A stretch of DNA of 45,977 nt from a virus: positions 1 to 45,977 of the IMG/VR virus record IMGVR_UViG_3300036851_000807; one strand, given 5' to 3'. The notes under the pieces are model-generated. The model was not told where the DNA came from. It worked only from the letters and a program-made list of their open reading frames with translations, and made no database searches. The position numbers and the translations under genes were made by a program. Position 1 is the first letter of the stretch. Every line of letters begins with the position of its first letter. This document shows positions 4,243-38,259 of this stretch, in pieces.

Positions 4243-4605
4243 TTAGCTCCACTGTTGGAGTTGAGGGGTGCGGGCGAGCGCGTCGATCATGAGATCGAGG
4301 ACGGAGAACGAGTCGGAGAACAGCTTTCGCTCGAACACGGCGCCGTAGAGCTGGAGCAGGCGCTCGTAGTGCTTTTGATCGAGCACGATCTCGGTGCGCG
4401 CGGGGCGGCAGGAGACGGTGCCGGGGATGAACTCGGCGACGGCGGCGCACGACGCGCAGTAGTACGTCGGCATCTCGCGCGTGCGGTCCTCGACGCGGAC
4501 GATGAACAGCTTGCACGCGTCGTCGTGATCGCAGCCGAAGCAGTGGTCGGGGCGACCGTCGACCCTAACGAGCGGGCAACCCCAAGGGCGGGTGAAGTCG
4601 ATCAT
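4243..4605 (-). CDS. Hypothetical cysteine-rich protein
   Basis: 120 residues; the ATG at 4605 overlaps the preceding stop by 4 bases. Cys22, Cys25, Cys31, Cys50 and Cys53 (CFGC...C...YCASC) form a probable zinc site in the N-terminal half. The C-terminal half (DQKHYERLLQLYGAVFERKL) is predicted helical. It is part of the minus-strand cluster; no family recognised. Confidence 0.65.
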   Translation of the reverse strand: MIDFTRPWGCPLVRVDGRPDHCFGCDHDDACKLFIVRVEDRTREMPTYYCASCAAVAEFIPGTVSCRPARTEIVLDQKHYERLLQLYGAVFERKLFSDSFSVLDLMIDALARTPQLQQWS

Positions 4606-13777: not shown

Positions 13778-14089
13778 ATGGGAACCCTCGCGGTGTGCGT
13801 CGTCGTGCTCGCGCTCTGGAGTAGCGCGCGTCCGCTCCTTGAGCGGTTGATCGCGGTGCTCGAAGCACGGACGGCGCACGCCACGAAGGCGGTGACACCT
13901 CTCGAGGAGATCGTTGTCCCCGAGGACTTGATCCGGCTCGCCAAACGCGAATCCGAGGAATGGGCGCAGGAGCAGGCGCTCCGCGCGATGCGCGACGCCT
14001 TCCGGCAGGAGACCGGGACGACCGAGGAACGGTGGGCACGCGTGCGACTCCAGTTCCGAATTGCACTCATGAGTGAGGGCGCTGCCTAA
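13778..14089 (+). CDS. Hypothetical protein with an N-terminal hydrophobic segment
   Basis: 103 residues. Residues 2-15 (GTLAVCVVVLALWS) form a hydrophobic segment; the remainder is helical and charged (RLAKRESEEWAQEQALRAMR), possibly a coiled coil. It ends 1 base before the portal start, with its TAA in a GCCTAAC motif. It might be a membrane-anchored helical protein made late; no family recognised. Confidence 0.6.
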   Translation: MGTLAVCVVVLALWSSARPLLERLIAVLEARTAHATKAVTPLEEIVVPEDLIRLAKRESEEWAQEQALRAMRDAFRQETGTTEERWARVRLQFRIALMSEGAA

Positions 14090-14090
14090 C

Positions 14091-17444: not shown

Positions 17445-18761
17445 ATGGCTGCCGATCCCACTGAAATCACCGATACCGAGATTTCGGGCTTGCTCAAGCG
17501 AGCCTACTCGGATTTCCGTACCGACACGTTCCCCCAGGTGTGCGCGCTGTTGGCGTCGCTCAAGAAGGGGAAGCGTGGCGGGCCGGGACGCCTGCGCTGG
17601 ACCGGCGAAGGCGTTCGCGGCGACGCTGTACTCACCCGGCCGTTAGGCATGACGGCCTCGCAGTCCGGCTATTTCCCGTCCAACCACATCCGGAAGGAGC
17701 GTCAGTTCGAGCTCGGCATTCGCCGGTTGTACGTGACGCGCGAGCTGGACGGCCTCACGATCGTCGGGACGAAAGACCCGAAGGGCGCCTACATCTCGAT
17801 CGTGAAGAAGGCGCTACAGGAAATGAAGGACGCTGCCAAGCTCGGGATGCAGGAAGTCCTGCACGGCAACGGGCAGGGCATCAAGGGTGTCATCACCACG
17901 GCGACGAGCGCGACGTCGATCATCATCTCGAGCCCGTTCGGCCTGTCTGGCGCGGGTGAGGGTGGCTTGCTCGTCGACGAAGGGCTCGAAGTCGCGGCGA
18001 TCGACGTCGACACCGCCAACGCGGTGCTCGGACGTGCGCGGATCACGGCAGTCGTCAACAGCGGTGACTTCGCGACGCTCACGCTCGCGGGTGCTGGTAT
18101 CACCGGCATGGAAGTCGGCGACTATCTCGTCAGCTGCTCGGCGAGCGACACCGCGTTCGAGCAGAACCCGCACGGCTTGCTCGAAATCCTCAACCGAGGC
18201 GCGGCGTACAACAGCTTCCTCGGGATCGATGCGGCCACCGATCCGCGGTGGAACGCGACCACGATGACGGCGGGCACCGACACGCCGAGCGCGGCTCGTG
18301 TGACGGAATCCGACATCATCCGCCTCATCAAGAAGGTGGCGGCGCGGTCGGGCTTCGACGCGAAGGAGAAGCCGGGCGACTTCCTGTTGCTCACCACGCC
18401 CGGTCTCGAAATCCGGATCGCCGAGACGTTCCTCGGTTCGCGGACGATCACGCCGCAGCAGATGATGGACATTCCCGGCGGCTTCAAGGCCGTGAACATC
18501 CAGAACATTCCGCTGATCTCGGATCACTACTGCCCGGCCGGGACGGTGTACCTGCTCCATCTGCCCACGCTGTTGTGGGTGGACGCGAAGGACTTCGGCT
18601 TCATCTCCTTCGAAGGTGCAGGGCCGTGGCGTTGGATCGACGGACGGGACGCCTACCAGACGAACTGGGGCGCGTACCTGAACGTTGGCGCTCGCCAGCG
18701 CAACTCGCACGGCATGATCACTGGGTACGAGGACACCGAGCGGTTCTCGCACGTCATGTAG
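17445..18761 (+). CDS. Major capsid protein
   Basis: 438 residues, ATG 17445. It follows the scaffold gene and has the features of an HK97-fold coat protein: an N-arm with RAYSDFRTDTFPQV, a long helix region (YISIVKKALQEMKDAAKLGM), a beta-rich insert (about 165-215), and a C-terminal part with GAYLNVGARQRNSHGMITGY. No protease gene was seen, so scaffold removal without cleavage is likely. A hairpin after the stop (18777-18803) may set the ratio to downstream genes. Confidence 0.75.
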   Translation: MAADPTEITDTEISGLLKRAYSDFRTDTFPQVCALLASLKKGKRGGPGRLRWTGEGVRGDAVLTRPLGMTASQSGYFPSNHIRKERQFELGIRRLYVTRELDGLTIVGTKDPKGAYISIVKKALQEMKDAAKLGMQEVLHGNGQGIKGVITTATSATSIIISSPFGLSGAGEGGLLVDEGLEVAAIDVDTANAVLGRARITAVVNSGDFATLTLAGAGITGMEVGDYLVSCSASDTAFEQNPHGLLEILNRGAAYNSFLGIDAATDPRWNATTMTAGTDTPSAARVTESDIIRLIKKVAARSGFDAKEKPGDFLLLTTPGLEIRIAETFLGSRTITPQQMMDIPGGFKAVNIQNIPLISDHYCPAGTVYLLHLPTLLWVDAKDFGFISFEGAGPWRWIDGRDAYQTNWGAYLNVGARQRNSHGMITGYEDTERFSHVM

Positions 18762-19824: not shown

Positions 19825-20492
19825 TCCGCGACGACTACATCGAGGCGATCCGCACCGAGATGGACGCCGAGGAGCATCCGCGCTGGACGGATGCGAGCCT
19901 CGCGCGCACGCTCGGCGCGGTCCACGTCTTGGAGTGGGGCGAGCTGCTCGAGAGTTGCCCGGCGATCCGCCTCCAGACGCTGACGGTGACGCGCGACGCG
20001 AGCGGCCGGGTGCTCGTGTCCGATCTCACGAGCCCGAACATTGGCGACTTGCGCAGGGTGTTCTATCGCGTGCGCGATGCCGAGGACGCTGAACGACGGA
20101 AGTTCCGCGTCGAGGACTACGACGACGCGCCGAGCCGCGCGCGCGCGGGGAGCACGGCCCGCGTCGTGCGACGGGAGGGGGACTATCTCCAATTCACGCC
20201 CGTCGAGGCGCTCGATGTCGTGGTGACCGTGAACCACACGCCGACGCCCGCGAACCTGCTGTCGGCGGGGGGCGTCGAGGTTGAGTGGCCGGAAGGCCAT
20301 GAGAACGTGCTGATCTACGCGTCGGCCGCGATCGCCATGATGAAGGGCGGGACCGAGACCGATCCTGCGGCGGCGCTCAATGCCGTGGCCGCGAAGTTCC
20401 GCACGCGGATGACGCAGGCGCTGACGCGCACGTTCGGTGGGCCGCGCCGGATCAAGTACACCGACACCGCTGGCGAGTGGGGTGGCCAGTAG
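19821..20492 (+). CDS. Head-tail adaptor protein
   Basis: 223 residues, ATGA overlap. It starts with a helix bundle (MIRDDYIEAIRTEMDAEEHP, TDASLARTLGAVHVLEW), has a central beta part (LQTLTVTRDASGRVLVSD, RVFYRVRD, DYLQFTPVEALDVVVTV) and ends with helices (ENVLIYASAAIAMMKGG, KFRTRMTQALTRTF). This matches the recalled outline of podovirus adaptor or tail accessory proteins that bind the portal, and it precedes the beta-propeller tail protein as expected. Confidence 0.6.
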   Translation: MIRDDYIEAIRTEMDAEEHPRWTDASLARTLGAVHVLEWGELLESCPAIRLQTLTVTRDASGRVLVSDLTSPNIGDLRRVFYRVRDAEDAERRKFRVEDYDDAPSRARAGSTARVVRREGDYLQFTPVEALDVVVTVNHTPTPANLLSAGGVEVEWPEGHENVLIYASAAIAMMKGGTETDPAAALNAVAAKFRTRMTQALTRTFGGPRRIKYTDTAGEWGGQ

Positions 20493-22039
20493 TGGCACGC
20501 CCAGGCCGCGAGGACATGCAGGCCGGGTTCGCCCAGGGGCTGAACACGACGGCCGACGAGTCGCAGCTCCGTAAGCAGGAGATGCGGCGCGCCGACAACG
20601 CACGTCTGACGAAAGCGGGCGCGGTGTCGCGCATCCTCGGCTCGCAACGCATCCACGAGGACGAGATCGGCGGCGGCGACCCGGTGCGTGGTGGCTTCAC
20701 GTGGAAACGCGACAGCGGTGCGGTGCAGCTCCTCGCGGTCGCCGGTGGGAAGCTCTACACGGCGACGTACGGGTCACTCCCGATCACGTGGACGGAGGAG
20801 ACGGGCACGCTCAGTAGCTCGGCGGTGCCCTCGTTCGCGGCTTTCCGCGACGCGACCGGTGAGTGCGTCTACATCGCCGATGGCGGCGTGCTCAATAAGT
20901 GGGACGGCTCGACGCTGACGACCGACATCGCGAACGCCCAGGCGGTCTCGCGGGTGTGGACCTATAACCAGCGGCTGCACGGTGTGAGCGGCTCGACGGC
21001 GCTCGTCTACTACTCGACCCTCAATGACGGGGACTCGTTAGGGTACGTCGCGGGCGGTGGCGGCAGTGCCGTCGTGCGGACCTTCGGCGGGCAGCGGCTG
21101 ACGACGGGGATCACGGTCGGCACGGCGAGCCTCATGTTCCACGTCGGCGGCATCTCGAAGTTCACCGGCTATACGCAGGACGACATCGCGATCGACGCGG
21201 GCGCGCAGGGCGTGTCTGGCTCGAAGGGCACCGAAGCGCCTCAGAGCGTGGTGCTCGTCGAGAAATCGGACGAAGGCATCGACGCCGCGTTCTTCCTCAC
21301 CGGGCGTGGTGTGTACCGCGCGACTGAGGCCGGGTGCTATGCCGTGCGCTCTGACGTGTTACTCGAGACGCTCGCGACGCTCGATCAATCCTCATGGGAG
21401 CGCGTCCAGGCGGCGCATCACGCGCGCTACGCCGAGGTGCTGTTCTATCTGCCTGACGTCGGGGTGTACGCCTACAACTACCTGCTCGACGCGTGGAGCG
21501 GGCCGTGGACGGCGGCGTACACGAGCGCGGTAACGCATTCGATGTGGGAGTCGGTCGACGCGCAGGGCCGCGCGATCCTGCTGTTCGGTGGCGCCGATGG
21601 ATTCGTGCGACGCGCCGACATGCCGCGCGTGTTCAAGGCCGACGTCCTCGCCGATGGCACTGGCGGATCGAGCTACACGATGGTCGCGCGCTGCCGTCGC
21701 TTCTTCTTCGGAGACGAGGCCGAGGAGAAGCAAATGAAGTGGCTCTACATCACGGCGAACCTGCGCGGCTCGACGCGCGCGGGCGTGCGGTGGACGGCGG
21801 ACTACGGGAGCGGGCAGTTCACCTTCGCTGCTGCCGCCGATGGCGCTGGCGCGCTGTGGGGCGCGTTCACGTGGGGCGCGACGGTGTGGGCGGGCATCTC
21901 GAATAAGACGAAGACGTTCCGTGTGCCGATGCACGCGCGCGGGCCGTATGTCGACATCACGTTCGTCGACGACGGGGAATCGGAGAGCGAGTGGTCACGT
22001 GTGAAGGTCGAAGCGTTCAGCAATGGGAGACGATTCTAA
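20492..22039 (+). CDS. Beta-propeller tail protein (portal/tail stabilisation type)
   Basis: 515 residues from the GTG in TAGTG, overlapping the adaptor stop by 1 base. Residues about 15-45 (AQGLNTTADESQLRKQEMRR) followed by repeated blades with DG/GG turns and aromatic strands (GKLYTATYG; GECVYIADGGVLNKWDG; RVWTYNQRLHGVSGS; AYNYLLDAWSGPWTA; ILLFGGADGFVRR) indicate a beta-propeller, as in podovirus tail-stabilising proteins of the gp10 type. It would form part of the short tail closing the portal channel. Confidence 0.65.
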   Translation: MARPGREDMQAGFAQGLNTTADESQLRKQEMRRADNARLTKAGAVSRILGSQRIHEDEIGGGDPVRGGFTWKRDSGAVQLLAVAGGKLYTATYGSLPITWTEETGTLSSSAVPSFAAFRDATGECVYIADGGVLNKWDGSTLTTDIANAQAVSRVWTYNQRLHGVSGSTALVYYSTLNDGDSLGYVAGGGGSAVVRTFGGQRLTTGITVGTASLMFHVGGISKFTGYTQDDIAIDAGAQGVSGSKGTEAPQSVVLVEKSDEGIDAAFFLTGRGVYRATEAGCYAVRSDVLLETLATLDQSSWERVQAAHHARYAEVLFYLPDVGVYAYNYLLDAWSGPWTAAYTSAVTHSMWESVDAQGRAILLFGGADGFVRRADMPRVFKADVLADGTGGSSYTMVARCRRFFFGDEAEEKQMKWLYITANLRGSTRAGVRWTADYGSGQFTFAAAADGAGALWGAFTWGATVWAGISNKTKTFRVPMHARGPYVDITFVDDGESESEWSRVKVEAFSNGRRF

Positions 22040-25460: not shown

Positions 25461-26402
25461 ATGGCGATCGACTGGGACACGATCCTGAGCGCACTCTCGG
25501 GCGGCGTGCAGGGTGGAATGCGCGGCTACGCGCAGGGCGAGGAGCTACGCTCGAACCGGCAGCGCGACGATCTCGCACGCCAACGCGAGCAGCGCGAGCA
25601 GAATGCCGACTTCGACCAAGCCAACTATCGCGCGAGTCAGGCACTCAACGAGGCCAACGCCGGGTTCGACAAAAAGCAGGACGCGACGGCGAAGCGTGGT
25701 CGGCTCGCGAAGGGCAACCGCGCGATCCTCGCGACGACGCCGGAAGGGAAGGCCGCGATCGATGCGTTAGGTGCCAACGCCGACGACGTGCTCGGGGAGT
25801 ACGAGGGCTCGGCGATCGACGACATCCTGCGGAACCTGCGCCCACCGCCACCGAAGCGCGAGCCGATCGACCGATTCTCGCCCGAAGGCGTCGCCGCGCA
25901 ACAGCAGATCGACACCGAGCGGGCGAAGCTGCGAACGAAATACCCGACCCCTCGCGCGAACAGTGGGAACGAGGACCGCACGGCGATCACGTCGTTGCTC
26001 GGTGGACTCAACTCACAGATCGACGACGCGCGTTCGGACGTCACGCGACTGAGCAAGCCGATCAGAGAGGCGGCCGAGGCCGGGGTCGACGTCGAGGCCG
26101 CAGACACGGCGGGCCTGGGCGACGCGCGCTCGCGCATGACGACGCTCGGCGGGCAGAGGGACATGGCAACGAAGGCGCTGATGCAGTCGAATCCGGTGCT
26201 CGCGCGACTGTTCGCGTCCGACTCGGCGGGTGCTGCACCGCCGCCGCCGGTCACGCCACCGCCTGCGGGATTCCAGCGGCAAGGCCCGCCGCGTGGCGTC
26301 GCGCAGCCGTTAGGCGAGAAGGAGAAGTTCAAGGCGCGGAGTGATCCGAAGTTCCGCGCGTTCCTCATGCGGAACGGCTACACCGATGGGGATTGGAAGT
26401 GA
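25461..26402 (+). CDS. Internal virion (ejection) protein candidate 3
   Basis: 313 residues with GGGAG 5 bases upstream of the ATG. The N-terminus (MAIDWDTILSALSGGVQGGM) is amphipathic; residues 28-90 are a highly charged, Gln/Arg-rich helix (RQRDDLARQREQREQNADFD); the centre has further helices (AITSLLGGLNSQIDDARSDV) and a Pro-rich linker near 255-285. The C-terminal DPKFRAFLMRNGYTDGDW looks like a short docking motif. It overlaps the giant gene by 4 bases. Role inferred from composition and neighbours. Confidence 0.55.
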   Translation: MAIDWDTILSALSGGVQGGMRGYAQGEELRSNRQRDDLARQREQREQNADFDQANYRASQALNEANAGFDKKQDATAKRGRLAKGNRAILATTPEGKAAIDALGANADDVLGEYEGSAIDDILRNLRPPPPKREPIDRFSPEGVAAQQQIDTERAKLRTKYPTPRANSGNEDRTAITSLLGGLNSQIDDARSDVTRLSKPIREAAEAGVDVEAADTAGLGDARSRMTTLGGQRDMATKALMQSNPVLARLFASDSAGAAPPPPVTPPPAGFQRQGPPRGVAQPLGEKEKFKARSDPKFRAFLMRNGYTDGDWK

Positions 26403-29400
26403 CCGGGCCGATCAACTGGCTCGCTGAGTACGAGCGGCACGAGGAGGAGGAGCGTCGACGCGCGGCCGCGCATCCGCTCGTCACGCCGTCAGCTCGCGCC
26501 GAAGATGCTGGACCGACTGGAAAGCCGGATTGGTTGGCGGAGTTCAGCGCAGCCGAGGGGCCGCGTCGTCTCCCGCCTGCCGTCGTCATGGCGGAGCCGC
26601 CGCGATTCCCGATTCCGACGTTGCCGCCTGCCGTCGTGCAGGCCACTCCGCCCATCGAGCAACCGTTCACGGAGCCCGGTGGCGGTGGCGCGTCGTGGGA
26701 CGACTCGGGCGAAGGGTTCCTCTCGAACCTTGGCTCGGGACTCTACCGTGGGATCCGCAAGGATTTGCCTGAGCAAGTCGGGAACGTGTTGCAGATGTTC
26801 GGCGGCAGTGGCCTGAACCGCGACATCCCCGGCACGGTGCTGCCGATGGCCGGGCGCGCACTCGAGCAATTCGGGAACGAGGCGCCTGACGTGCAGCCGC
26901 GCGTCGGAACGATCGGCGAGGCGGTGCAGTCGCCGTCCGCAGCTCGCGACTACCTCGGCTACCAGATCGGCAACGTGGGCGCGTCGTCGCTCCCGTCGTT
27001 GCTAGCCGCGATCGTGGGCGGGCCGATTGGCGCGACCGCAGCGAGCTACGTGCAGAACACCGGCGACGTGAGGCAGGAGCTGGAGGACTCGGCGCCTAAC
27101 ACGGAGCCCTCGACGCGCGACGCGATCGCGGCGTTGCTCGGCGTGCCCCTCGCGGCGCTCGATCAAGTCACGGAGTCTCGACTCGGTGGGAAGGTCGCGA
27201 AGGCGATCGGCGGGAAGCTCGCGACGAGTGCCGCTGAGCGTGGCGTCGTCGGGACGGCGAAGCGCGTGGCGAAGGAAGTCGGCAAGAGCACGCTGTCGGA
27301 AGGCGTCACCGAAGCGGCGCAGGAAGGCGTCCAGTACCTCGGTGTGCGCGGCGCGACGGGCCAGCCGATCAAGGCGCGCGAGTTGGGAAGCCGGATGCTG
27401 GAGGCGGGCGTTGCTGGCGCTGTGGGCGGTGGCGCGATGGGTGGCGCGACCGAGACGGTGGCCGCAGGAACGGAGGCGCTCCGCTCGCGGCTCAAGCCGC
27501 GTCAGGCAGAGCCGCCAGTCACGCCTGCGCCGATCGTTGACGCGGACGGACGCGATCGCTCGATGCTCGATGCTCGACTCGCGAAGCGTGAGGAACATCG
27601 GGTGAAGGCGCCCGCGCCTGAGATCGACCACGAGTCGGCGCGCGCGGTGCTCGATCGTCGACTGAAGCCGAAGGCGCCAACAACGCCTGACGAGTTGCCG
27701 ATCGCACCGTACACCCCTCACGTGGAGCAGGACAACCGCACCGAGGAGGAGAAGGCCGCACACCGCGCGCGCGTCGGTGGCGAGCTACCGAGTGAACGCC
27801 GGACGCGTCTCGAACGCGAGGCCGTCACGCTCAAGAGCGGCGACGTCGTGGTCGACGAGCAGGGCCAGCGTCATGCGTTCGACGGGTTCGCGCTCCAGAA
27901 CGAGGCACATCCCGACGACGTGACCGTCCTATTCGGCTCGCGCCGTGAGAACGGTCAGATGGTGCGCGAGTTCATTCACGGCAGTACCAGCGGATTCGGC
28001 GAGTTCGAGATCGAGAGGAAGGGCACGGCGACGGAGCCCGCGAAGGCACCCGAGGCGAAGGAGCAGCGCCACGCTGAGCCCGCACAGGCAGGCATCACGG
28101 TCACAGACGAGAGCTTCCATAAGGGCAAGCCAGCGTTCAAGGTGCTGCGCCACGTCGACGACACCGGCAAGGTGCTCGGCGAATTGCGGCTGTACATGAA
28201 CGAGGATGGCACCAGCTCCGGCCAGAGCGTATTCATCGAGAAGGAGCACCAGCGAAAGGGCATCGGTACCGCGCTCTATCGTGAGGCCGAACGGCTTGGA
28301 TTCGACCCGTTGAGCAATACGGGGAAGTCGTCACCGCTCACAGAGGCAGGAAGGGCGCTCACTGACAAGCTCCGCGCGGCGAAGGAGCCAACGAAAGCAC
28401 CGCCACCGAAGAAGCTGGAGATCAACCCGGACTCGCGTTATGCGGGCGAGGAGAACCCCGAGGCGTTGTTCGACGGCTCGGTGGAGCAGGCGCGCGCGCA
28501 CTACAACGACGTGCTCTCCCTCAACGCCGTGCTGGACTCGGGGAAGAAGGCGAACGGCCGGAAGCTGACGCCGAAGGAAGTGACCGAGGCCCGTACGTTG
28601 CGCCAGCAGAGGCAAGACCTTTACCAGTCGACGCTCGGTGAGATCGAGAGCGCGTTCGGGAAAGAGGGACGCGAGCGCGCGAAGTCACTCATCGTGAAGC
28701 CCGCGCCGACACCCCCTTCCGAAAGAGCCCCCTCGAAAGAGGAGGCGAAACCGGAAGCGGCGATCGAGGAGGAGGCGCCGAAAGCTCCGACTCCAATCAC
28801 GAAGGGCACGATGGTTCGCCTGCCCGATGGAAGGGTCGGGCGAGTGTGGACGCTGAAGGACAACGGAACGGCCGAAGTCCGAATGCAGGACGGCGGGATT
28901 CGCACCGCGCACGTCAGCACACTGAAGACCCCGCAGCCTGGCGACGCGAAGCCGAGGGCGGTGACGCCGCAGATCGTGCCGGACGCCTCGAAGGATGTCG
29001 GCCACGTCTTGCCGTCATTCGTCAACGCGCAACGACGCGGCGGCGAGAACCCAAGCACAGGAGTTGCGAATGCGAGCAGCGCACCAGATACTCAGTCAGG
29101 CGACGACGCCGCGACGGTTGCAGGTACTACCGGGGAGCGCGCCGATGACACTCGGCCTGTTCGGGAAAGCGCACGAGGAGAGTCTCAGGGAGAACCGTCC
29201 CGAGGCGTATCAAGCCCTGCAACGGAACGGGACGCTGGCGAGCGTGGTGGCGGAGATCGACCGGGAAGCGCAGCAGACGTTCGAGTCGACGCTGGCCGCG
29301 CTCCTGAAGCAGCACCCGCCGACCGGGACGTACCTCGAGCGAGTCCAGCAGACCGACGCACTCGCGCAGCAGGCGAGGGAGCTGGTGATGGAGGACGTGA

Positions 29401-32400
29401 TCGTTCGGGAGCCAGACCCGGAGAACCCGACGCAGGCGGAGCCCAACGCCGACCGGCTGAGTCCAAGCCAGAACGACGCGACGTAGGCAGTAACTACCGC
29501 CTCACCGACGCCGACGCGATCGGCGCGGGTGGCGCGAAGGGCAAGGCGAGAGGGAACCTCGCCGCGATCCGACTGCTGAAGGAGATCGAGCGCGAAGGCC
29601 GACCGGCGACAGCCGAGGAGCAGGCGACGCTCGTGAAGTACGTCGGGTGGGGTGGAATCCCCCAGGCGTTCAGTCCTGACAACAAGGACTTCGGCCCGAT
29701 CGCGAAGGAACTGCGCGAGCTGCTCACCGACGAGGAGTACGCGGCGGCGCGCGCGTCGACGCTGAACGCGCACTACACGTCGGCCCCTGTGATCCGCGCC
29801 ATTCACGCGGGACTCGCGCGGCTCGGCCTAACGACCGGGCGCGCGCTGGAGCCGTCGATGGGCGTGGGCCATTTCCTCGGGCTCGGGCCGACGTCGTTGC
29901 AGTGGACGGGCGTCGAGCTCGACTCGATCACCGGCAGGCTCGCGAAGCTCCTCTACCCGCAGTCCGACGTGCAGGTGCGTGGCTTCGAGACGGTCGCGAT
30001 GCCGGACAATCTGTTCGACGTCGCGGTGGGGAACGTCCCGTTCGGCAACTTCGGCGTCACCGATCGCGCGTATCCGAAGGAAGTCACCGGGTCGATCCAC
30101 GACTACTTCTTCGCGAAGTCGCTCGATAAGGTGCGGCCCGGTGGGCTCGTCGCGTTCATCACGTCGTCGTTCACGCTCGACAAGCAGAGCGCGGCGATGC
30201 GGAAGTACCTCGGCGAGCGGGCAAACCTCGTTGCTGCGATCCGCCTCCCGAACACAGCATTCGCGGGGAACGCGGGGACTGAGGTCACGACCGATCTCAT
30301 TGTCCTCCAGAAGCGAGAGAAAGGAACGCCGCAGACCGGCGAGACGTTCGTCGACCGCGCGCACATCATGAGTGCTGGCGAGTCGATGTTCGTGAACGAG
30401 TACTACGCGCGGCACCCTGAGATGATGCTCGGGGAGATGCAGCTCGCGGGCACCATGTACCGCGACAAGGCGCCGACGCTCGTCGCTCCCGAAGGGCAGA
30501 ACATCGAGAAGGCGTTAGGTGAGGCGTTCGCGAAGCTGCCCGCTGGCATCTACAAGCCGCGCGCCATCGAGGCGCCTGGCACCCGCAACCCCGGCACCGC
30601 GGAGGCCGAGCTCGTCGGCACCGACGACGACATTCGCGAGGGTGGCTTCCTCGTGCGTGGCGGTCGGTTGCTCCAGCGCGAGGGGAACGAGTTCAAGGCG
30701 TCGAAGCTTGGGAAGGCCGCAGCGGAAAAGGTCTCGCAGCTCGTCGGCATTCGCGATGCGATCCACCGTGTGCTCCAGTCGCAATTCCAGAATCGGAGCG
30801 ACGAGGAGATCACCGCCGAACGCGCGGAGTTGAACCGGCTCTACGATCGGTTCGTGAAGGCGCATGGCCCGATCCGACGCGAGACGCGGACGGAGATCAA
30901 CCGCGAAGGCCGCGCCGAGCCGATCGTCGTCACGCGCTACCCGAACCTGCGCGACTTCCAGGCCGATCCCCGCTGGCCGCTCCTCATGGGGCTGGAGGAG
31001 TACGACGCCGAGACCGACACGGCGAAGAAGACCGACATTCTCCAGCGTCGGGTCATCGAGCCACGCAAGCCCGTCGAGAAGGTCGACACGCCAGCCGACG
31101 CGATCCCGGTGGTGCTCGCGGAGTCGGGCGCGTTCTCTCTCGAGCGAGTGGCGCAACTGTCGGGAACGACGATTGATGCAGCGCGCGAAGCGTTGCGCGG
31201 CGCGATCTACGAGAACCCGACGAGCGGCGTGTTCGAGACGCGCGATCAATACCTGTCTGGCAACGTCCGCACGAAGCTCGCCCAGGCACAGCGCGCAGCG
31301 AAGGGTGACCCTCGCTTCAACGAGAACGTCGAGGCGTTGAAAGGCGCGATCCCCGAGGACTTGCCGCCATCGAAGATCGGCGCGCAGCTCGGCGCACCGT
31401 GGATCCCCACTGAGACGATCGCGCAGTTCGTGCGGGATGTGTTCGGCGCGGGCAACGTAAAGGTGACGTATCTCGCGCGCGAAGCCACGTGGTCGGTCAG
31501 CTACGAGCCCCGCCAGCGCAGCAGCGCGGCGTCGACGACGGAGTTCGGGACCAAGCGCGCGTACGGCACCGAGCTATTGAGCGACGCGCTCAATCTCAAG
31601 CCGACCACGATCTACGATCCCGGCCCCGACGATACCCGCGTCAAGAACGTGCAGGAGACGCTCGCGGCGCAGGAGAAGCAGCAGAAGCTAAAGGACCGAT
31701 TCGCAACGTGGCTGTGGGAGGACGGCGCGCGGGCGACGGCGCTCGCTCGCCTGTACAACGACAGCTACAACAGCATCCGGCTGCGCGACTACGACGGCGC
31801 GCACCTCACGATGCCGGGGGCAGCGTCGCATGTGAACGGGAAGCCGTTCGGTCTGCGACCGCACCAGAAGAATGCCATCTGGCGGATTCTCCAGAGCGGC
31901 AACACGCTGCTCGCGCACGTGGTGGGCTCAGGCAAGACGTACACGATGGTCGCGGCAGGCATGGAGGCGAAGCGCCTCGGGCTCGCGCGGAAGCCGATGT
32001 ATGCGATCCCCAATCACATGCTCGGCCAGTTCTCGCGCGAGTTCCTCGGGCTCTACCCGACAGCGAAGCTGCTGGTGGCGACGAAGGAGGACTTCGCCAA
32101 GGATCGGCGGAAGGCGTTCACTGCACGTATCGCGTCAGAAAACTGGGACGCAATCATCATGACGCACCGCTCGTTCGAGTCGGTCGGCATGAGTCCCGAG
32201 TTCGAGCAGCAGTTCCTCGAACGGGAGCTTGGCGAGCTGGAGCAATCGATTCGCGAGGCGAAGGCCGCGAAGAACCACGACCTGACGAAGCTCATCGAGA
32301 AGGCGAAGAAGAAGCGGACGGCGCGACTCGACACCCTGCGCGCGGCGGAGAAGAAGGATGATCTCCTCCCGTTCGAGGCGCTTGGCGTCGACATGCTCTT

Positions 32401-35400
32401 TGTCGACGAGGCCGACGAGTTCAAGAACCTCAACATCACGTCGAAGCAGCAGGGACTGGGGCTCGAAGGCTCGCAGCGCGCCTTCGATATGTACATGAAG
32501 ACCCAGTATCTCGACTCGCTCAATCCGGGGCGCGGTGTCGTGTTCGCGACGGGCACGCCGATCGCCAACTCGGTGAGCGAGATGTACACCATGCAGCGGT
32601 ATCTCCAGCCGCGACTCATGGGAGAGCGGAGCGTCAGCCACTTCGACGGGTGGAGTGCGACGTTCGGCCAGATGGTGACCGGCATGGAGCTGGCGCCGGA
32701 CGGCAGCGGCTACCGGCAGTCGACCCGGTTCGCGCGATTCCAGAACATGGGCGAGCTGGCGCAGATGTTCCGCTCGGTCGCCGACGTGCAGACGAGCGAG
32801 ATGCTCAACCTGCCGCGCCCGAAGCTGGAGACGGGACAGGCTCAGGTCGTAGCGGTCCCCGCGACGTCGGCGCTCAAACGCTACGTGCAGACGCTCGTCG
32901 AGCGCGCGCGGAAGGTGAAGAACAAGGAGGTTGAACCGGACGAGGACAACCTGCTCAAGATCACCGGCGACGGGCGGAAGGCGGCGCTCGATCTCCGACT
33001 GGTCGGGCTCAGTGGCGGCGAGGGCTCCAAGACCAAGGTCGTCGAGGCGGCGTCCAAGATCGCGCGCATCTATAAAGAGACGACCGCGCTCAAGGGAGCG
33101 CAGATGGTGTTCAGCGATCTCGGCACGCCGAGCGACAAGTTCAACGTCTACGACGAGCTGCGCCTGCACCTCGAGCGGGAGGGCGTGAAGCCCGCAGAGA
33201 TTCGCTACATCCACGACGCCGACACGCAGGCGAAGAAAGACAAGCTGTTCGCGGACGTGAAGGCCGGACGCGTGCGCGTCGTGATCGGGTCGACGCAGAA
33301 GCTCGGCGCCGGGACCAACGTGCAGGATCGTCTCGTGGCGTTGCACCATCTCGATGCACCGTGGCGACCGCGCGACGTCGAGCAGCGCAACGGTAGAATT
33401 CTCCGACAGGGCAACCTGCTGTACGGGGACGCGACGACGCCCGACAGCGAGCGGAAGATTCCGCACGTGTCGATCTTCACGTACGTGACCGAGGGTTCGT
33501 TCGACGCCTACATCTGGCAGGGACTGGAGCGGAAGGCAGGCTTCATCACGCAGGCGCTGACGGCAGGCGTCGAGACGCGCGAGATCGACGACGTGGGCAC
33601 GGTGGAAGTCGACTGGGCGACGGCCAAGGCGATCGCGTCAGGCAACCCGAAGGTGTTGGAGAAGGCGACCATCGACGCCCAGGTGAGCAAACTGGAGCGG
33701 TTACGGCGCGCTCACCAAGACGACGTGTTCGGCGCGGGCCAGAAGATCAAGCTGCTGCCGATGGCGATCGCCGAGTCGAAGGAACGAGCCACCGCATTAC
33801 AGAAGGACGTCGACCAAGCCGAGGACACGGCGGGCGACAGGTACGCGATCACCATCGGCGGGAAGAAGTTCACGAAGCGAGCGGACGCAGGCGCCGAGTT
33901 GAAGAAGGTGCTCGATGCGTTCCTCGGCTCGGTCGCGTCGGTGCCGTTCGAGGAACGGAAGTCGATGTCGAAGAAGCTCGGCACGTTCGCCGGGTTCCCT
34001 CTCCACATCGAGGCGGATGGCTTCTCGATCACCGCGGCGCGGATGATCCTGAATGGCGAGGCGCAGCACGTGGCCGAGGTCACGGCGTCGGATAGCCCCA
34101 TGAGTCTCGCGTTGACGCTGGAGCACGCGCCGAAGGGCATCGCCACGCGGATCGCTCGCATCCATGACGGGATCGAGCAGAACGAGAAGAACCTCGCGCG
34201 ACTGAAGGAGCTGGTCGGCAAGCCCTACGAGCACGCGGCGAAGCTGGCGCAGTTGAAGGAGCGGCAGGCGGCGCTCGACACGGAGCTGCAGGCCGACGCG
34301 ACGCGCTCCGAGGCCGAGGCGAAGAAGGGCGGCGGCATGGTCGACGACTTCCTAACGAGTGAGGAGGGCGCGCTCAAGATCGGCGAGTTGGGTGACCGTC
34401 TGCGCCAGCGTCGACTCGATCGTGAGCCACTCGCCGTGTCGCAGATCGAGGAAGTCGAGGAGCGATTCCAGCGCGCGAAGGGAATCGCCACGCCGACGAT
34501 CCGCGATCGTGTTAGGCAGGCGATTGACGCGGTGAAGCGCGCGGGCCGTCACTTCCCGCACATGGACCCGTCGTCGTCGCCGCTGGCGGCGCGGACGAAC
34601 GAGCTGCTGCTCGAAGTGGAGCACGCGAAGCGCTACGCCGAGGCGATGGCGTACGACAAGATCGCTGCCGTGACGGACGGGTTGACTCAGGGCGAGGTCG
34701 ACCTGTTCACGCGAAAGCTGGTGCTCGACGATCTCATGAAGGACGTCGAGGCCGGACTCTACGAAGGGCGCGACGAGTTGCCGTTCGGGTATCCCGACGC
34801 GGCGGCGGTGCAGCGCGATCTCGATGAAGTCGAAGGCGCAGCCGCGAGTCGGCCGAAGGTCCAGCGTGCGATCGCCGAGCGACAGCGATTCGCGCAGGCT
34901 CTGACGCGTGCGCTGGTCGACGCCGAGCAGCTCAACCCGAAGGTGCTGGAGGACGAGCGGTACTATCACCGTCAGGTGCTCGATCACTTCAACGCGCTCG
35001 CGCATGGCCCGTTGCTCGGGCTCGGCGGTCGCGAGGCGCGCATCAAGCGGAAGGGATTCCAGAAGCAGCGCGTCGGCGGCGGTGACTTCAACACGCGCTA
35101 CCAAGAGGCGGAGTTCGAGTGGGTCGCCCAGGCGTACCGCATCCTGCACATGGTCGGCGCGCAGAAGGAGATTCGCCGTCTCGCGGACATTCAGCCGCAG
35201 TTGAAGGGGGAGGCCAAGAGTCTCAACCTCTCGCGCTACTATGAGAAGGAAGCTGCTGCAGCTGGAATTCCTGACGAGGACATGATCGGGAGCAATGATC
35301 CGCTCCAGCCGTTCAGGAAGCGCATGGGGATGGCGTCGTCGAAGATTCTGTCACTCGCGACGCAGGGGAAGCTCGACGCGCCACAGTACGACGCCGTGAT

Positions 35401-37462
35401 CGAGGCGATGGCCGAGGCGCACGCCGAGTGGAAAGCCGAGATGAAGGAGCGCGACCCCGACGACCGGGAGCCGTTCCGGTTCGATCATCCGCGCTACTTC
35501 GCTCTGCTGAACTACCTCGCGTCGAACGAGGGGCCGGGCGCCATGCCCGCTCGATCCTTCTTCAAGGCCATGCACGAGCGCGAGCAGGCGATTCGCGAGA
35601 CGCTCGGCACCGAGTATAAGGAATGGGAGGACGTGATCCCCGAGGGCTACACCAAGTGGCAGCCGGTGAAGGGCCAGTTCTTCTATCCCGCGCTGACGGT
35701 GCAGGAGCGGGCGCTCGATGCCGCGCTCGAGGGATCGTCGCGTCTTGACGAGGCGTTGCGCTCGGTGCTGGTGCTCGGTGGCCCGAAGGAGACGTGGGTG
35801 ATTCCCGACTACCTCGCGGCGACGATGGACAAGCTCGGCCAGCAGCGCGACATGAGCGCGGTGGAAGCTACGTGGGTCGGCGGGATGCGCTACTGGAAAA
35901 CGATCATGCTCCAGGCACCGACGCGCATCCTGAAATACATCTTCAACAACACGTCGGGCGATCTCGACGCCTCGATCATGTACCCGAAGGTGCTGAAGTA
36001 CGGGCCGGGTGCGGCGCGCGATCTGTTCACCTACATGGTGAAGCGACAGGGAAGTGACGCCCTGAAGCGCGAGATGCAGGAGGCGACGCGGCTAAGGGTG
36101 ATCGACCAAGGCCTAACGGTCGCGGAGATTCCCGACGTCAACGAGCTGCCCGCGTTCGAGCGGTTGGTTGCGTCCGACCCGTTGCACTTCATGGGGCTCG
36201 TGCAGAGCTACTTCAAGCACGCGCGCCTCGTGACGCAGCTGCGAGAGAACATTCTCCGACTCGCGGCATGGCGGCACTTCCGCGCCGAGCTACAGGCGGG
36301 CCGTTCGCCTGGCTTCGGTGCGTCGAACCCGGCGAGCGTGAACGCGCAGACGTCGCCAGCAGGGAAGGCGGCGGTGCTCGCCCGCGACTTGTTAGGCGAC
36401 TACGGCGCGGTGTCGAGCGGTGGCATGTTCATTCGCGACCGCGCGATCCCGTTCTACTCGTGGATCGAGATCAACGCCAAGCGGTACGTGAATCTGTTCC
36501 GCAACATCTCGAAGGAAGGGCACTCGGGCGGTCGGCTCGCTGGCGCAGGAGCGGCGCGGCTCGCGGTGGCCGGGGCAGGCGTCGTGTTCCGCGCGAATGT
36601 GTTCTTCCTGCTCGTGAACCTGTGGAACCACCTGTTGTGGCCGGACGAGGAGGACGAGCTGCGCGGCACCGACGCGCGCACGCTGCATCTGATTCTCGGC
36701 CGAGACGACGACGGGCGCGTCCGTACGGTGCGGATCGAGGGCGCGTTCGCCGACTTCCTCGAGTGGGTGAACCTCTCGGACTACCCGTCTGACATCGCCG
36801 ATCTCGTGAAGGGCACGAAGTCACTGGCCGACCAATTCGTCGAGGGCGCCGAGGGTCCGATCAACCGAGTGATCAACTCGTGGGAGCCGGTGACCAAGAC
36901 GGCGGCGGAGCTGCTGACGGGGCGGAGCATGTACCCGAACGCCTTCAAGCCACGTGTCGTGCGCGATCGCGGCGGGCAGGCGGCGCGCGCGGTGACGTTA
37001 GGCTGGCTCTACGACAAGGTGACGGACAAGCCGATGCGACCGGGCAATCTGGCGACGGACCTGTTGCTCTACCGCACCGATCCCGGCGAGGCGGCGTACT
37101 TCCGCGTGCGCGAGAAAGCAGGCGACTGGCTGGAGCAACAGAACAAAGGGCGCAACCTGGGGAACCCGACCAAGAAGGAGAACGCGCTCTACTACTGGCG
37201 GAAGTCGTTGCAGTGGGGCGAGCCCGAGAAGGCCGAGCGCTGGCTCCAGCGGTACTACGCACTCGGTGGAACGCGGAAGTCGGCAGTGGGGAGCATCAAG
37301 CGGGCCGCTCCGCTGTCGCCGATCGCGGTGCACGACCGACGCCGGTTCCTGGCGTCGCTGACTCCGGAGGAACGCGAGTCGTTGACGCTCGCGGAGCAGT
37401 GGTACCAGCGCACCTATCATGGCGTGCGCCCGTCTCGCCCGGCTGCGGCGAGTGACCGATAG
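26399..37462 (+). CDS. Giant polyvalent virion protein with GNAT-like, DNA-methyltransferase-like and SNF2-like helicase modules (DarB-type)
   Basis: 3687 residues from GTG 26399 (GTGA overlap; TTG 26393 is an alternative). Modules in order: amphipathic, partly hydrophobic N-terminus (to about 360); GNAT-like acetyltransferase domain at about 560-660 with QRKGIGTALY; SH3-like domain at about 800-846; disordered linker at about 871-1031; N6-adenine-methyltransferase-like domain at about 1032-1314 with EPSMGVG (1151-1157) and NVPF (1212-1215) in place of NPPF; SNF2-like helicase at about 1800-2420 with GSGKT (1843-1847), DEAD (2003-2006), ATGTP and QRNGRILRQG around 2329-2338; coiled coil at about 2420-2645; and a long virion-type C-terminus with a membrane-like segment near 3386-3415. 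P1 DarB, an ejected antirestriction protein, shares the methyltransferase-helicase pairing. The last of a run of ejection-type genes, it is probably injected with the DNA. Activities are predicted only. Confidence 0.75.
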   Translation: MTGPINWLAEYERHEEEERRRAAAHPLVTPSARAEDAGPTGKPDWLAEFSAAEGPRRLPPAVVMAEPPRFPIPTLPPAVVQATPPIEQPFTEPGGGGASWDDSGEGFLSNLGSGLYRGIRKDLPEQVGNVLQMFGGSGLNRDIPGTVLPMAGRALEQFGNEAPDVQPRVGTIGEAVQSPSAARDYLGYQIGNVGASSLPSLLAAIVGGPIGATAASYVQNTGDVRQELEDSAPNTEPSTRDAIAALLGVPLAALDQVTESRLGGKVAKAIGGKLATSAAERGVVGTAKRVAKEVGKSTLSEGVTEAAQEGVQYLGVRGATGQPIKARELGSRMLEAGVAGAVGGGAMGGATETVAAGTEALRSRLKPRQAEPPVTPAPIVDADGRDRSMLDARLAKREEHRVKAPAPEIDHESARAVLDRRLKPKAPTTPDELPIAPYTPHVEQDNRTEEEKAAHRARVGGELPSERRTRLEREAVTLKSGDVVVDEQGQRHAFDGFALQNEAHPDDVTVLFGSRRENGQMVREFIHGSTSGFGEFEIERKGTATEPAKAPEAKEQRHAEPAQAGITVTDESFHKGKPAFKVLRHVDDTGKVLGELRLYMNEDGTSSGQSVFIEKEHQRKGIGTALYREAERLGFDPLSNTGKSSPLTEAGRALTDKLRAAKEPTKAPPPKKLEINPDSRYAGEENPEALFDGSVEQARAHYNDVLSLNAVLDSGKKANGRKLTPKEVTEARTLRQQRQDLYQSTLGEIESAFGKEGRERAKSLIVKPAPTPPSERAPSKEEAKPEAAIEEEAPKAPTPITKGTMVRLPDGRVGRVWTLKDNGTAEVRMQDGGIRTAHVSTLKTPQPGDAKPRAVTPQIVPDASKDVGHVLPSFVNAQRRGGENPSTGVANASSAPDTQSGDDAATVAGTTGERADDTRPVRESARGESQGEPSRGVSSPATERDAGERGGGDRPGSAADVRVDAGRAPEAAPADRDVPRASPADRRTRAAGEGAGDGGRDRSGARPGEPDAGGAQRRPAESKPERRDVGSNYRLTDADAIGAGGAKGKARGNLAAIRLLKEIEREGRPATAEEQATLVKYVGWGGIPQAFSPDNKDFGPIAKELRELLTDEEYAAARASTLNAHYTSAPVIRAIHAGLARLGLTTGRALEPSMGVGHFLGLGPTSLQWTGVELDSITGRLAKLLYPQSDVQVRGFETVAMPDNLFDVAVGNVPFGNFGVTDRAYPKEVTGSIHDYFFAKSLDKVRPGGLVAFITSSFTLDKQSAAMRKYLGERANLVAAIRLPNTAFAGNAGTEVTTDLIVLQKREKGTPQTGETFVDRAHIMSAGESMFVNEYYARHPEMMLGEMQLAGTMYRDKAPTLVAPEGQNIEKALGEAFAKLPAGIYKPRAIEAPGTRNPGTAEAELVGTDDDIREGGFLVRGGRLLQREGNEFKASKLGKAAAEKVSQLVGIRDAIHRVLQSQFQNRSDEEITAERAELNRLYDRFVKAHGPIRRETRTEINREGRAEPIVVTRYPNLRDFQADPRWPLLMGLEEYDAETDTAKKTDILQRRVIEPRKPVEKVDTPADAIPVVLAESGAFSLERVAQLSGTTIDAAREALRGAIYENPTSGVFETRDQYLSGNVRTKLAQAQRAAKGDPRFNENVEALKGAIPEDLPPSKIGAQLGAPWIPTETIAQFVRDVFGAGNVKVTYLAREATWSVSYEPRQRSSAASTTEFGTKRAYGTELLSDALNLKPTTIYDPGPDDTRVKNVQETLAAQEKQQKLKDRFATWLWEDGARATALARLYNDSYNSIRLRDYDGAHLTMPGAASHVNGKPFGLRPHQKNAIWRILQSGNTLLAHVVGSGKTYTMVAAGMEAKRLGLARKPMYAIPNHMLGQFSREFLGLYPTAKLLVATKEDFAKDRRKAFTARIASENWDAIIMTHRSFESVGMSPEFEQQFLERELGELEQSIREAKAAKNHDLTKLIEKAKKKRTARLDTLRAAEKKDDLLPFEALGVDMLFVDEADEFKNLNITSKQQGLGLEGSQRAFDMYMKTQYLDSLNPGRGVVFATGTPIANSVSEMYTMQRYLQPRLMGERSVSHFDGWSATFGQMVTGMELAPDGSGYRQSTRFARFQNMGELAQMFRSVADVQTSEMLNLPRPKLETGQAQVVAVPATSALKRYVQTLVERARKVKNKEVEPDEDNLLKITGDGRKAALDLRLVGLSGGEGSKTKVVEAASKIARIYKETTALKGAQMVFSDLGTPSDKFNVYDELRLHLEREGVKPAEIRYIHDADTQAKKDKLFADVKAGRVRVVIGSTQKLGAGTNVQDRLVALHHLDAPWRPRDVEQRNGRILRQGNLLYGDATTPDSERKIPHVSIFTYVTEGSFDAYIWQGLERKAGFITQALTAGVETREIDDVGTVEVDWATAKAIASGNPKVLEKATIDAQVSKLERLRRAHQDDVFGAGQKIKLLPMAIAESKERATALQKDVDQAEDTAGDRYAITIGGKKFTKRADAGAELKKVLDAFLGSVASVPFEERKSMSKKLGTFAGFPLHIEADGFSITAARMILNGEAQHVAEVTASDSPMSLALTLEHAPKGIATRIARIHDGIEQNEKNLARLKELVGKPYEHAAKLAQLKERQAALDTELQADATRSEAEAKKGGGMVDDFLTSEEGALKIGELGDRLRQRRLDREPLAVSQIEEVEERFQRAKGIATPTIRDRVRQAIDAVKRAGRHFPHMDPSSSPLAARTNELLLEVEHAKRYAEAMAYDKIAAVTDGLTQGEVDLFTRKLVLDDLMKDVEAGLYEGRDELPFGYPDAAAVQRDLDEVEGAAASRPKVQRAIAERQRFAQALTRALVDAEQLNPKVLEDERYYHRQVLDHFNALAHGPLLGLGGREARIKRKGFQKQRVGGGDFNTRYQEAEFEWVAQAYRILHMVGAQKEIRRLADIQPQLKGEAKSLNLSRYYEKEAAAAGIPDEDMIGSNDPLQPFRKRMGMASSKILSLATQGKLDAPQYDAVIEAMAEAHAEWKAEMKERDPDDREPFRFDHPRYFALLNYLASNEGPGAMPARSFFKAMHEREQAIRETLGTEYKEWEDVIPEGYTKWQPVKGQFFYPALTVQERALDAALEGSSRLDEALRSVLVLGGPKETWVIPDYLAATMDKLGQQRDMSAVEATWVGGMRYWKTIMLQAPTRILKYIFNNTSGDLDASIMYPKVLKYGPGAARDLFTYMVKRQGSDALKREMQEATRLRVIDQGLTVAEIPDVNELPAFERLVASDPLHFMGLVQSYFKHARLVTQLRENILRLAAWRHFRAELQAGRSPGFGASNPASVNAQTSPAGKAAVLARDLLGDYGAVSSGGMFIRDRAIPFYSWIEINAKRYVNLFRNISKEGHSGGRLAGAGAARLAVAGAGVVFRANVFFLLVNLWNHLLWPDEEDELRGTDARTLHLILGRDDDGRVRTVRIEGAFADFLEWVNLSDYPSDIADLVKGTKSLADQFVEGAEGPINRVINSWEPVTKTAAELLTGRSMYPNAFKPRVVRDRGGQAARAVTLGWLYDKVTDKPMRPGNLATDLLLYRTDPGEAAYFRVREKAGDWLEQQNKGRNLGNPTKKENALYYWRKSLQWGEPEKAERWLQRYYALGGTRKSAVGSIKRAAPLSPIAVHDRRRFLASLTPEERESLTLAEQWYQRTYHGVRPSRPAAASDR
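29070..29486 (+). CDS. Nested (overprinted) gene inside the giant gene, TnpV-like protein
   Basis: 138 residues in a different frame of the same strand, entirely inside the giant gene's disordered linker. ATG 29070 has AGGAG 6 bases upstream; a second candidate, ATG 29145, has GGGGAG 7 bases upstream. The protein looks globular and helical: HEESLRENRPEAYQAL, then NGTLASVVAEIDREAQQTFE, and QQARELVMEDVI. This recalls the TnpV family (short proteins with LRExRPxxY, GxL and IDxxA elements). By hand count over 29145-29483, third codon positions are about 88% GC in this frame but only about 42% GC in the giant frame, so codon selection acts on this small gene. Function unknown. Confidence 0.7.
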   Translation: MRAAHQILSQATTPRRLQVLPGSAPMTLGLFGKAHEESLRENRPEAYQALQRNGTLASVVAEIDREAQQTFESTLAALLKQHPPTGTYLERVQQTDALAQQARELVMEDVIVREPDPENPTQAEPNADRLSPSQNDAT

Positions 37463-37474
37463 AACCGAGAGATC

Positions 37475-37735
37475 ATGGACCCCGAAGCCGTGAAGTGGCT
37501 CGTCAACATCCTGCAACTGATCGCCGTCGCGGGTGTGACGTTCCTCATCAGAGGGCAGGCGCAGCACACGAAGGACATGGCAGAGATCAAGACAACGCTC
37601 ATCGGAATCGACGGGAAGAACGGTATCCGTGGCGCGGTGGCCGATCTCGAAGCCGCGACCGAGGACCAGTGGAAGCACATTGCTCGTCTCGACACCGACG
37701 TTGCGGTGCTGAAGGTGAAAGGGGGGACGTCATGA
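37475..37735 (+). CDS. Small membrane protein with coiled coil (holin or inner spanin candidate)
   Basis: 86 residues. One N-terminal transmembrane segment at about residues 8-25 (WLVNILQLIAVAGVTFLI) is followed by a polar helical domain (HTKDMAEIKTTLIGIDGKNG; VADLEAATEDQWKH). It overlaps the endolysin start (ATGA). The layout, one anchor with a coiled-coil body next to an endolysin, is seen in inner-membrane spanins and in XhlA-type lysis proteins. Which of these applies cannot be settled here. Confidence 0.6.
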   Translation: MDPEAVKWLVNILQLIAVAGVTFLIRGQAQHTKDMAEIKTTLIGIDGKNGIRGAVADLEAATEDQWKHIARLDTDVAVLKVKGGTS

Positions 37736-38259
37736 TGACGCGCGACATGGCCGTCAGGATCGTGCTCGCCATCGCGCGGATGTTCCTCTACACGCGCGAG
37801 GCGGGCGCGAACCGAGGCGCGACCGTCGAGGCGATCCTGAAGTCGACGGGCAACGCGCCGGGTGAATCGTGGTGCGCGTCGTTCGTCTGGTGGTGTGTGC
37901 GTGTGATCGTCCTGCTGTTCTGCCCGAAGCTCTCGTGGATGCGAACGGCGAGCTGCGATGCACTCCTCGAGGCGGCGCGCGTGCGAGGGTTGCTACGCGA
38001 CGAGCCTGCGCCGGGCTATCTCTGCCTCGTGCTCAAAACGGAGACGGACGCGATCCATGTGACGTTCGTCGACAACCGGAAGATCCTCGGCGCCGTGGCG
38101 CCGGGCGCGTTCCCGACGATCGAGGGGAACACGAACATCGACGGGAGCAGCAACGGAATCGGTGTGTTCGAGCGGGTACGCGGCGGGCCTGACGACAAAT
38201 GGATCAAGGCCGGGCACGGCTACGTGTTCGTCGATTGGGCTAGCCAGCTCGCGGCCTAG
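37732..38259 (+). CDS. CHAP-like endolysin
   Basis: 175 residues from ATG 37732, with an AAGGGGGG ribosome-binding site. The order of conserved elements fits a CHAP cysteine amidase/peptidase: nucleophile in ESWCASFVWWC (Cys48), the histidine in AIHVTFVDN (His109), and EGNTN (131-135) supplying the third polar residue. It would cleave peptidoglycan peptide or amide bonds at lysis. The hydrophobic stretch at about 52-64 lies in the domain rather than being a signal peptide. Only one catalytic domain and no separate cell-wall-binding module are visible. Confidence 0.75.
   Translation: MMTRDMAVRIVLAIARMFLYTREAGANRGATVEAILKSTGNAPGESWCASFVWWCVRVIVLLFCPKLSWMRTASCDALLEAARVRGLLRDEPAPGYLCLVLKTETDAIHVTFVDNRKILGAVAPGAFPTIEGNTNIDGSSNGIGVFERVRGGPDDKWIKAGHGYVFVDWASQLAA

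Follow-up and report, generated by a model that had tools for sequence, protein, structure and literature searches.

A giant phage gene predicted to encode a divergent DarB-like polyvalent virion protein

Introduction

The DarB protein of phage P1 (NC_005856, 2255 aa) is packaged and ejected, and has been linked to EcoK/EcoB protection (PMC9024508, PMC12810830). Its mechanism has been called undefined, and in a plasmid assay antirestriction came from DNA sites rather than from the DarB protein (PMC11109961). For Dar protection, which is confined to DNA in cis, physical obstruction has been put forward as the cause (PMC12707154). Iyer et al. (2017) described a wider set of polyvalent proteins, in which an LPD36-methyltransferase-SNF2 dyad and accessory domains, GNATs among them, are joined in one ejected or transferred protein (PMC5512222). 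DarB-like proteins are also carried by Bcep22-like phages (Lessievirus), such as BcepIL02 gp70 and JC1 gp69 (about 4500-4700 aa), as well as by PEp14, SopranoGao and VvAW1, and JC1 gp69, a homologue, has been detected in virions by mass spectrometry (PMC9144972). Finally, a 3764-residue protein of phage Parlo has been reported to unite helicase, methyltransferase and acyltransferase domains in a single giant podophage protein (PMC6606913).

Here we describe a giant gene from a viral record of 45,977 bases, which shows no repeat at its ends and which we refer to in its entirety as the window. Like P1 DarB, the encoded protein has a core that joins an adenine methyltransferase to a SNF2 domain, and the motifs NVPF and EPSxGxG occur in both; P1 DarB, however, lacks the long N-terminus, GNAT domain and 1050-residue C-terminus of the window protein, and P1 itself is long-tailed and has partner Dar proteins, with DarA, Hdf, Ulx, DdrA and DdrB as companions of DarB. 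Like the Bcep22-like giants, it is the product of one late gene that accounts for between about a fifth and a quarter of the genome, has the core in the middle and adjoins ejection-type genes and (in most of those phages) lysis genes. The Bcep22-like proteins compared have NPPF in place of the NVPF of the window, and features of some of them, an SLT transglycosylase at the N-terminus (seen by us in BcepIL02) or LPD C-termini, were not found here. With the polyvalent proteins it has in common the LPD36-methyltransferase-SNF2 dyad and the addition of accessory domains, including a GNAT. The Parlo protein offers the same combination of reported domains, but differs in its reported N-terminal transglycosylase (PMC6606913). 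Although that paper reports a methyltransferase and a helicase, the Parlo protein gave no phmmer match to the methyltransferase-helicase core of the window, and its 'DarB-like' core may be a different one.

Results

The giant gene (26399..37462, plus strand, as are all features for which we give residue numbers) is a reading frame that starts with GTG and is stop-free over 3687 codons. In a random frame at the gene's G+C content of 66%, the stop probability is 0.024 per codon, which gives a P of about 10^-38.5 for this length, and no other stop-free run in the window, whatever the frame, exceeds 728 codons. Consistent with the preliminary description, which had reported a single reading frame of about a quarter of the genome, the gene makes up 24% of the record. 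Its GTG overlaps the TGA of the upstream gene as GTGA, and an in-frame TTG at 26393 provides an alternative start. The six motifs that had been named in the protein are each present once, in the order given and at the implied position: QRKGIGTALY (aa 618-627), EPSMGVG (1151-1157), NVPF (1212-1215), GSGKT (1843-1847), DEAD (2003-2006) and QRNGRILRQG (2329-2338).

The gene lies among late and virion genes. Upstream are those for the terminase large subunit (8015-9802), portal (14073-16259), major capsid protein (17445-18761) and a virion structural protein (20477-22039), and the immediate neighbour (25461..26402, plus strand, sharing a 4-base overlap with the giant gene) probably encodes a small virion or ejection protein, judging only by its position and a match to phrog_29438 (0.005). 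An endolysin gene (37495..38259, plus strand; phrog_9589, 1.3e-6) follows directly downstream, and a giant DarB-like gene just ahead of the lysis genes is also the order in BcepIL02, PEp14, SopranoGao, POI1126 and Parlo. Beyond the endolysin are genes for a helix-turn-helix regulator, an IrrE-type peptidase, a YqaJ exonuclease and an integrase, and because of these the phage is probably temperate. Gene content and order suggest that it is probably also short-tailed. The capsid protein has only two viral relatives, both fragmentary (46-49% identity), the longer of which stops short of the giant gene, and tblastn with the portal against 50,697 phage records gave no match; thus the phage comes from a poorly sampled lineage. 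Scans with the N-terminus of the giant protein, its C-terminus or TerL retrieved no close viral relatives, a scan with the portal yielded no relative, and among the virion proteins compared those of the window bore no resemblance to those of VvAW1.

In a PHROG profile search, residues 900-2695 of the giant protein matched phrog_10089 ('DarB-like antirestriction') with 1714 bits. The core (aa 1030-2440) is 33-55% identical, in the best segment, to proteins of phages, prophages and conjugative elements, and tblastn found it in 108 phage records, including those of Bcep22-type DarB proteins, always at less than 60% identity. We took relatives of the core from contigs, 35 of them viral and 80 from bacterial genomes, and counted motif conservation in an alignment of 126 relatives, for which the denominators vary from motif to motif. 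The core begins with an LPD36-like helical cap (29486..29725, aa 1030-1109), whose GxG(G/A/S) motif, as defined in PMC5512222, reads GAGG at aa 1042-1045; its glycines are kept in 103/111 and 107/115 relatives. There follows a gamma-class adenine N6-methyltransferase domain (29726..30403, aa 1110-1335) with AHYTS, EPSMGVG and NVPF motifs, assigned from motif conservation and predicted fold. In its cofactor motif the glutamate is present in 116 of 123 relatives and both glycines in all 123, as is the acidic glutamate (123/123).

C-terminal to the methyltransferase is a SNF2/SF2 ATPase-translocase domain (31826..33433, aa 1810-2345), recognised by Pfam (Helicase_C, E 9e-7), PHROG and its motifs GSGKT, DEAD, TGTP, GxGTN and QRNGRILRQG. 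Motifs Q, I, II, III, V and VI of the ATPase are conserved, and its key residues are invariant in the relatives: the Walker A GK and the DE in 120/120, the TP in 119/119 and the GR of motif VI in 116/116. A helical extension after the helicase (33686..34318, aa 2430-2640) is common to other members, phmmer giving 48 domain hits among the relatives (best E 3.5e-12). The NCBIfam profiles matched were all distant ones for helicases and methyltransferases, with scores far under their cut-offs, and no solved structure matches the giant protein by sequence. In a tree of the core, the window protein forms a deep lone branch without a supported sister group, so that its substrate and target could differ.

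An AlphaFold2 model of aa 1030-1335, built from 49 sequences, reached a pLDDT of 90.7 and superimposed on M.TaqI with a Z of 19.7 (2.2 A over 178 residues) and on EcoKI M with a Z of 18.7, other adenine methyltransferases also being among the best matches. Structure prediction supports the methyltransferase fold, and with the PHROG score, the phage records and the conserved motifs it bears out the DarB-type methyltransferase-helicase pair that had been proposed. The same proposal had read NVPF as a deviant motif that might betray an inactive enzyme, and here we disagree. Motif IV in 124 relatives has N, P and F at its first, third and fourth positions without exception, and at the second V in 107, P in 15 and I in 2; in P1 DarB it reads GNVPFG. 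The 2017 survey gives the family motif as NPP(Y/F) (PMC5512222), whereas NVPF predominates in the relatives that we scanned, NPPF being found in a few prophages and in the Bcep22-type phages that we compared. Because it is the majority motif, P1 DarB included, NVPF is no sign of decay, and we rejected inactivity on this ground. In M.TaqI the second residue of motif IV supplies a main-chain carbonyl, which is possible with any residue. The activity of the methyltransferases of this family should not, then, be dismissed on account of NVPF, which rather than NPPF is the usual motif.

Towards the N-terminus, aa 170-465 (26906..27793) form a virion/ejection-type module that is common to virion structural proteins and N4-like virion RNA polymerases, and that also has weak tblastn similarity to other phage giants. 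It matched phrog_6958 (9.5e-11), phrog_30152 (2.6e-9) and phrog_2206 (2.2e-8), which comprise two virion structural protein families and a virion RNA polymerase family; controls made by reversing the segment once and shuffling it twice gave zero matches. The same virion RNA polymerase family was matched by 7 of 24 DarB-like N-termini. Direct phmmer comparison of the N-terminus with the N4 virion RNA polymerase alone found no match, so that the link is one of PHROG profiles. Hydropathy places a hydrophobic stretch at aa 190-219, and the N-terminal domain of the N4 polymerase has been described as likely to span the membrane and as belonging to an inner-membrane channel or complex (PMC12633501). 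The shared module supports packaging and ejection of the giant protein, and suggests that a single delivery domain has been reused by ejected giants that are otherwise unrelated.

The C-terminus presents a different picture. The preliminary description had assigned virion-type ends to the protein, and whereas this holds for the N-terminus, the C-terminal 1047 residues (34319..37459, aa 2641-3687), a region of unknown family with a hydrophobic segment at aa 3379-3413, had no phage match, no Pfam match and no reliable profile match. Comparison of aa 2640-3687 with the C-termini of relatives by hhalign gave at best an E of 0.003 and a probability of 10%. An LPD38/LPD39-type C-terminus, which Pfam finds in many relatives but did not find in the window protein, was rejected. 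Nor could we confirm an SH3-like domain: a KOW/SH3-barrel-looking stretch (28796..28924, aa 800-842), suggested by sequence only, and a second candidate at aa 475-530 had no profile support and no Pfam match. Residues 661-1030 (28379-29485) are a low-complexity linker rich in Pro, Arg and Gly, with a GC3 of 0.68, below that of the rest of the gene.

Between the ejection-type module and this linker is a minimal GNAT-like domain (28088..28378, aa 564-660). It matches PF00583 with an E of 1.2e-5 (27.6 bits against a cut-off of 20.7) and has the acetyl-CoA loop Q/R-x-x-G-x-G/A, as QRKGIG (aa 618-623), at the turn from strand 4 to helix 3. A single-sequence AlphaFold2 model shows four strands and a helix, with a pLDDT of about 80 in the core, but begins with strands and lacks the N-terminal strand-helix-helix of full GNATs. 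Matches to this model were weak with Foldseek alone (best E 0.09), and the top rows from VIA-align were mostly acetyltransferases at a Z of 4-6.5, below the level that is safe alone. The GNAT-like module that had been proposed is therefore upheld as a domain, by the Pfam score and the VIA rows, but not as a complete GNAT fold, and its acetyltransferase activity is uncertain because the modelled domain lacks the usual N-terminal helices. That this domain attacks host defences, as had also been proposed, is an inference.

No close relative of the GNAT domain was found among the fetched loci. In another giant DarB-like protein (L032, open frame from 4487) a mini-GNAT (QRQGVSTALH, aa 1235-1283) sits in the same slot, flanked by an inorganic pyrophosphatase domain on one side and the methyltransferase on the other. 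Domains present at the N-termini of relatives include inorganic pyrophosphatase, transglycosylase, PBECR1 nuclease, 2H phosphoesterase, which in some cases comes with a match to the anti-CBASS protein Acb1, M15 peptidase and RadC; Pfam found none of these accessory enzymes in the giant protein. GNATs in polyvalent proteins (PMC5512222) and acyltransferase domains in Parlo (PMC6606913) have been reported already, and the window GNAT adds a further variant to such exchange of accessory modules. Among 24 DarB-like N-termini, three matched the profile of the anti-CBASS protein Acb1 and three, more strongly, a 2H phosphoesterase (2'-5' RNA ligase) profile, which suggests from sequence similarity that these virion proteins carry other anti-defence cargo.

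Discussion

The giant protein is, on the evidence of its sequence, a divergent new member of a kind already known, the DarB-like polyvalent virion proteins. From the observed domains, conserved catalytic residues, gene order and shared virion module we consider it probable that it is built into the virion, ejected, and protects DNA from type I restriction. In this scheme the phage, temperate and probably short-tailed, would eject the protein together with its DNA, aa 170-465 serving as the packaging and ejection part, probably in contact with the membrane. In the cytoplasm, the LPD36-methyltransferase-SNF2 core would bind the entering DNA and move along it by means of ATP, and would either methylate adenines, as is predicted for the window protein, or simply occupy the DNA, in either case preventing cleavage by type I restriction enzymes; protection would act in cis. 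The minimal GNAT would be an accessory module in a variable N-terminal slot, and may acetylate a host protein.

One could also view the protein as mainly a structural ejection protein, a counterpart of T7 gp16 or the N4 virion RNA polymerase, whose core is an ATP-driven motor that pulls the genome in, with antirestriction secondary. The N-terminal module shared with N4-type polymerases, the likely membrane-spanning nature of the N4 domain within an inner-membrane complex (PMC12633501), and the position of the gene behind a run of small late genes, comparable to that of N4 gp50 behind gp51/gp52, would all fit. However, P1 DarB has the same core without the large N-terminal part (70 residues precede the matched region), and short proteins of bacterial genomes have it too, which means that the core is not tied to an ejection channel; a motor, moreover, needs no methyltransferase, yet the active site is invariant. 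We regard this as unlikely. A variant in which the two functions merge, the protein being anchored in the inner membrane, by the module in common with N4 virion RNA polymerase, as part of the ejection channel while its SNF2 motor reels DNA past the methyltransferase, so that entry and protection occur in one pass, strikes us as quite unlikely; if true, such a channel-embedded motor-methyltransferase would explain why Dar protection acts only in cis.

Set against DNA modification by the DarB-like protein is the idea of a methyltransferase without catalytic activity, in which case the core would be only a DNA-binding shield. The physical-obstruction account of cis-only Dar protection (PMC12707154) speaks for it, as did the original argument from NVPF, but NVPF is the form of 107 of the 124 relatives and of P1 DarB, and a dead domain should drift, whereas N, P, F, the cofactor glycines (123/123) and the glutamate (123/123) are invariant. 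We hold this to be very unlikely. We think it rather unlikely that the GNAT, together with the remainder of the N-terminus, is a functionless, degenerate remnant: the missing strand-helix-helix, the lack of a close relative among the fetched loci and the weak structure matches point that way, and are countered by the intact QRKGIG loop, the Pfam match above cut-off, the similar mini-GNAT in the same slot of L032 and the coding-type GC3 that the frame keeps in this region.

The preferred reading, of a DarB-like protein delivered from the virion, adds to the DarB-like ejected giants a phage lineage of which hardly any relatives have been sequenced. A still larger open frame, of 7149 residues with a DarB core, starts at 4286 in a viral contig of 53.6 kb (L019) and is about twice the length of the window protein.
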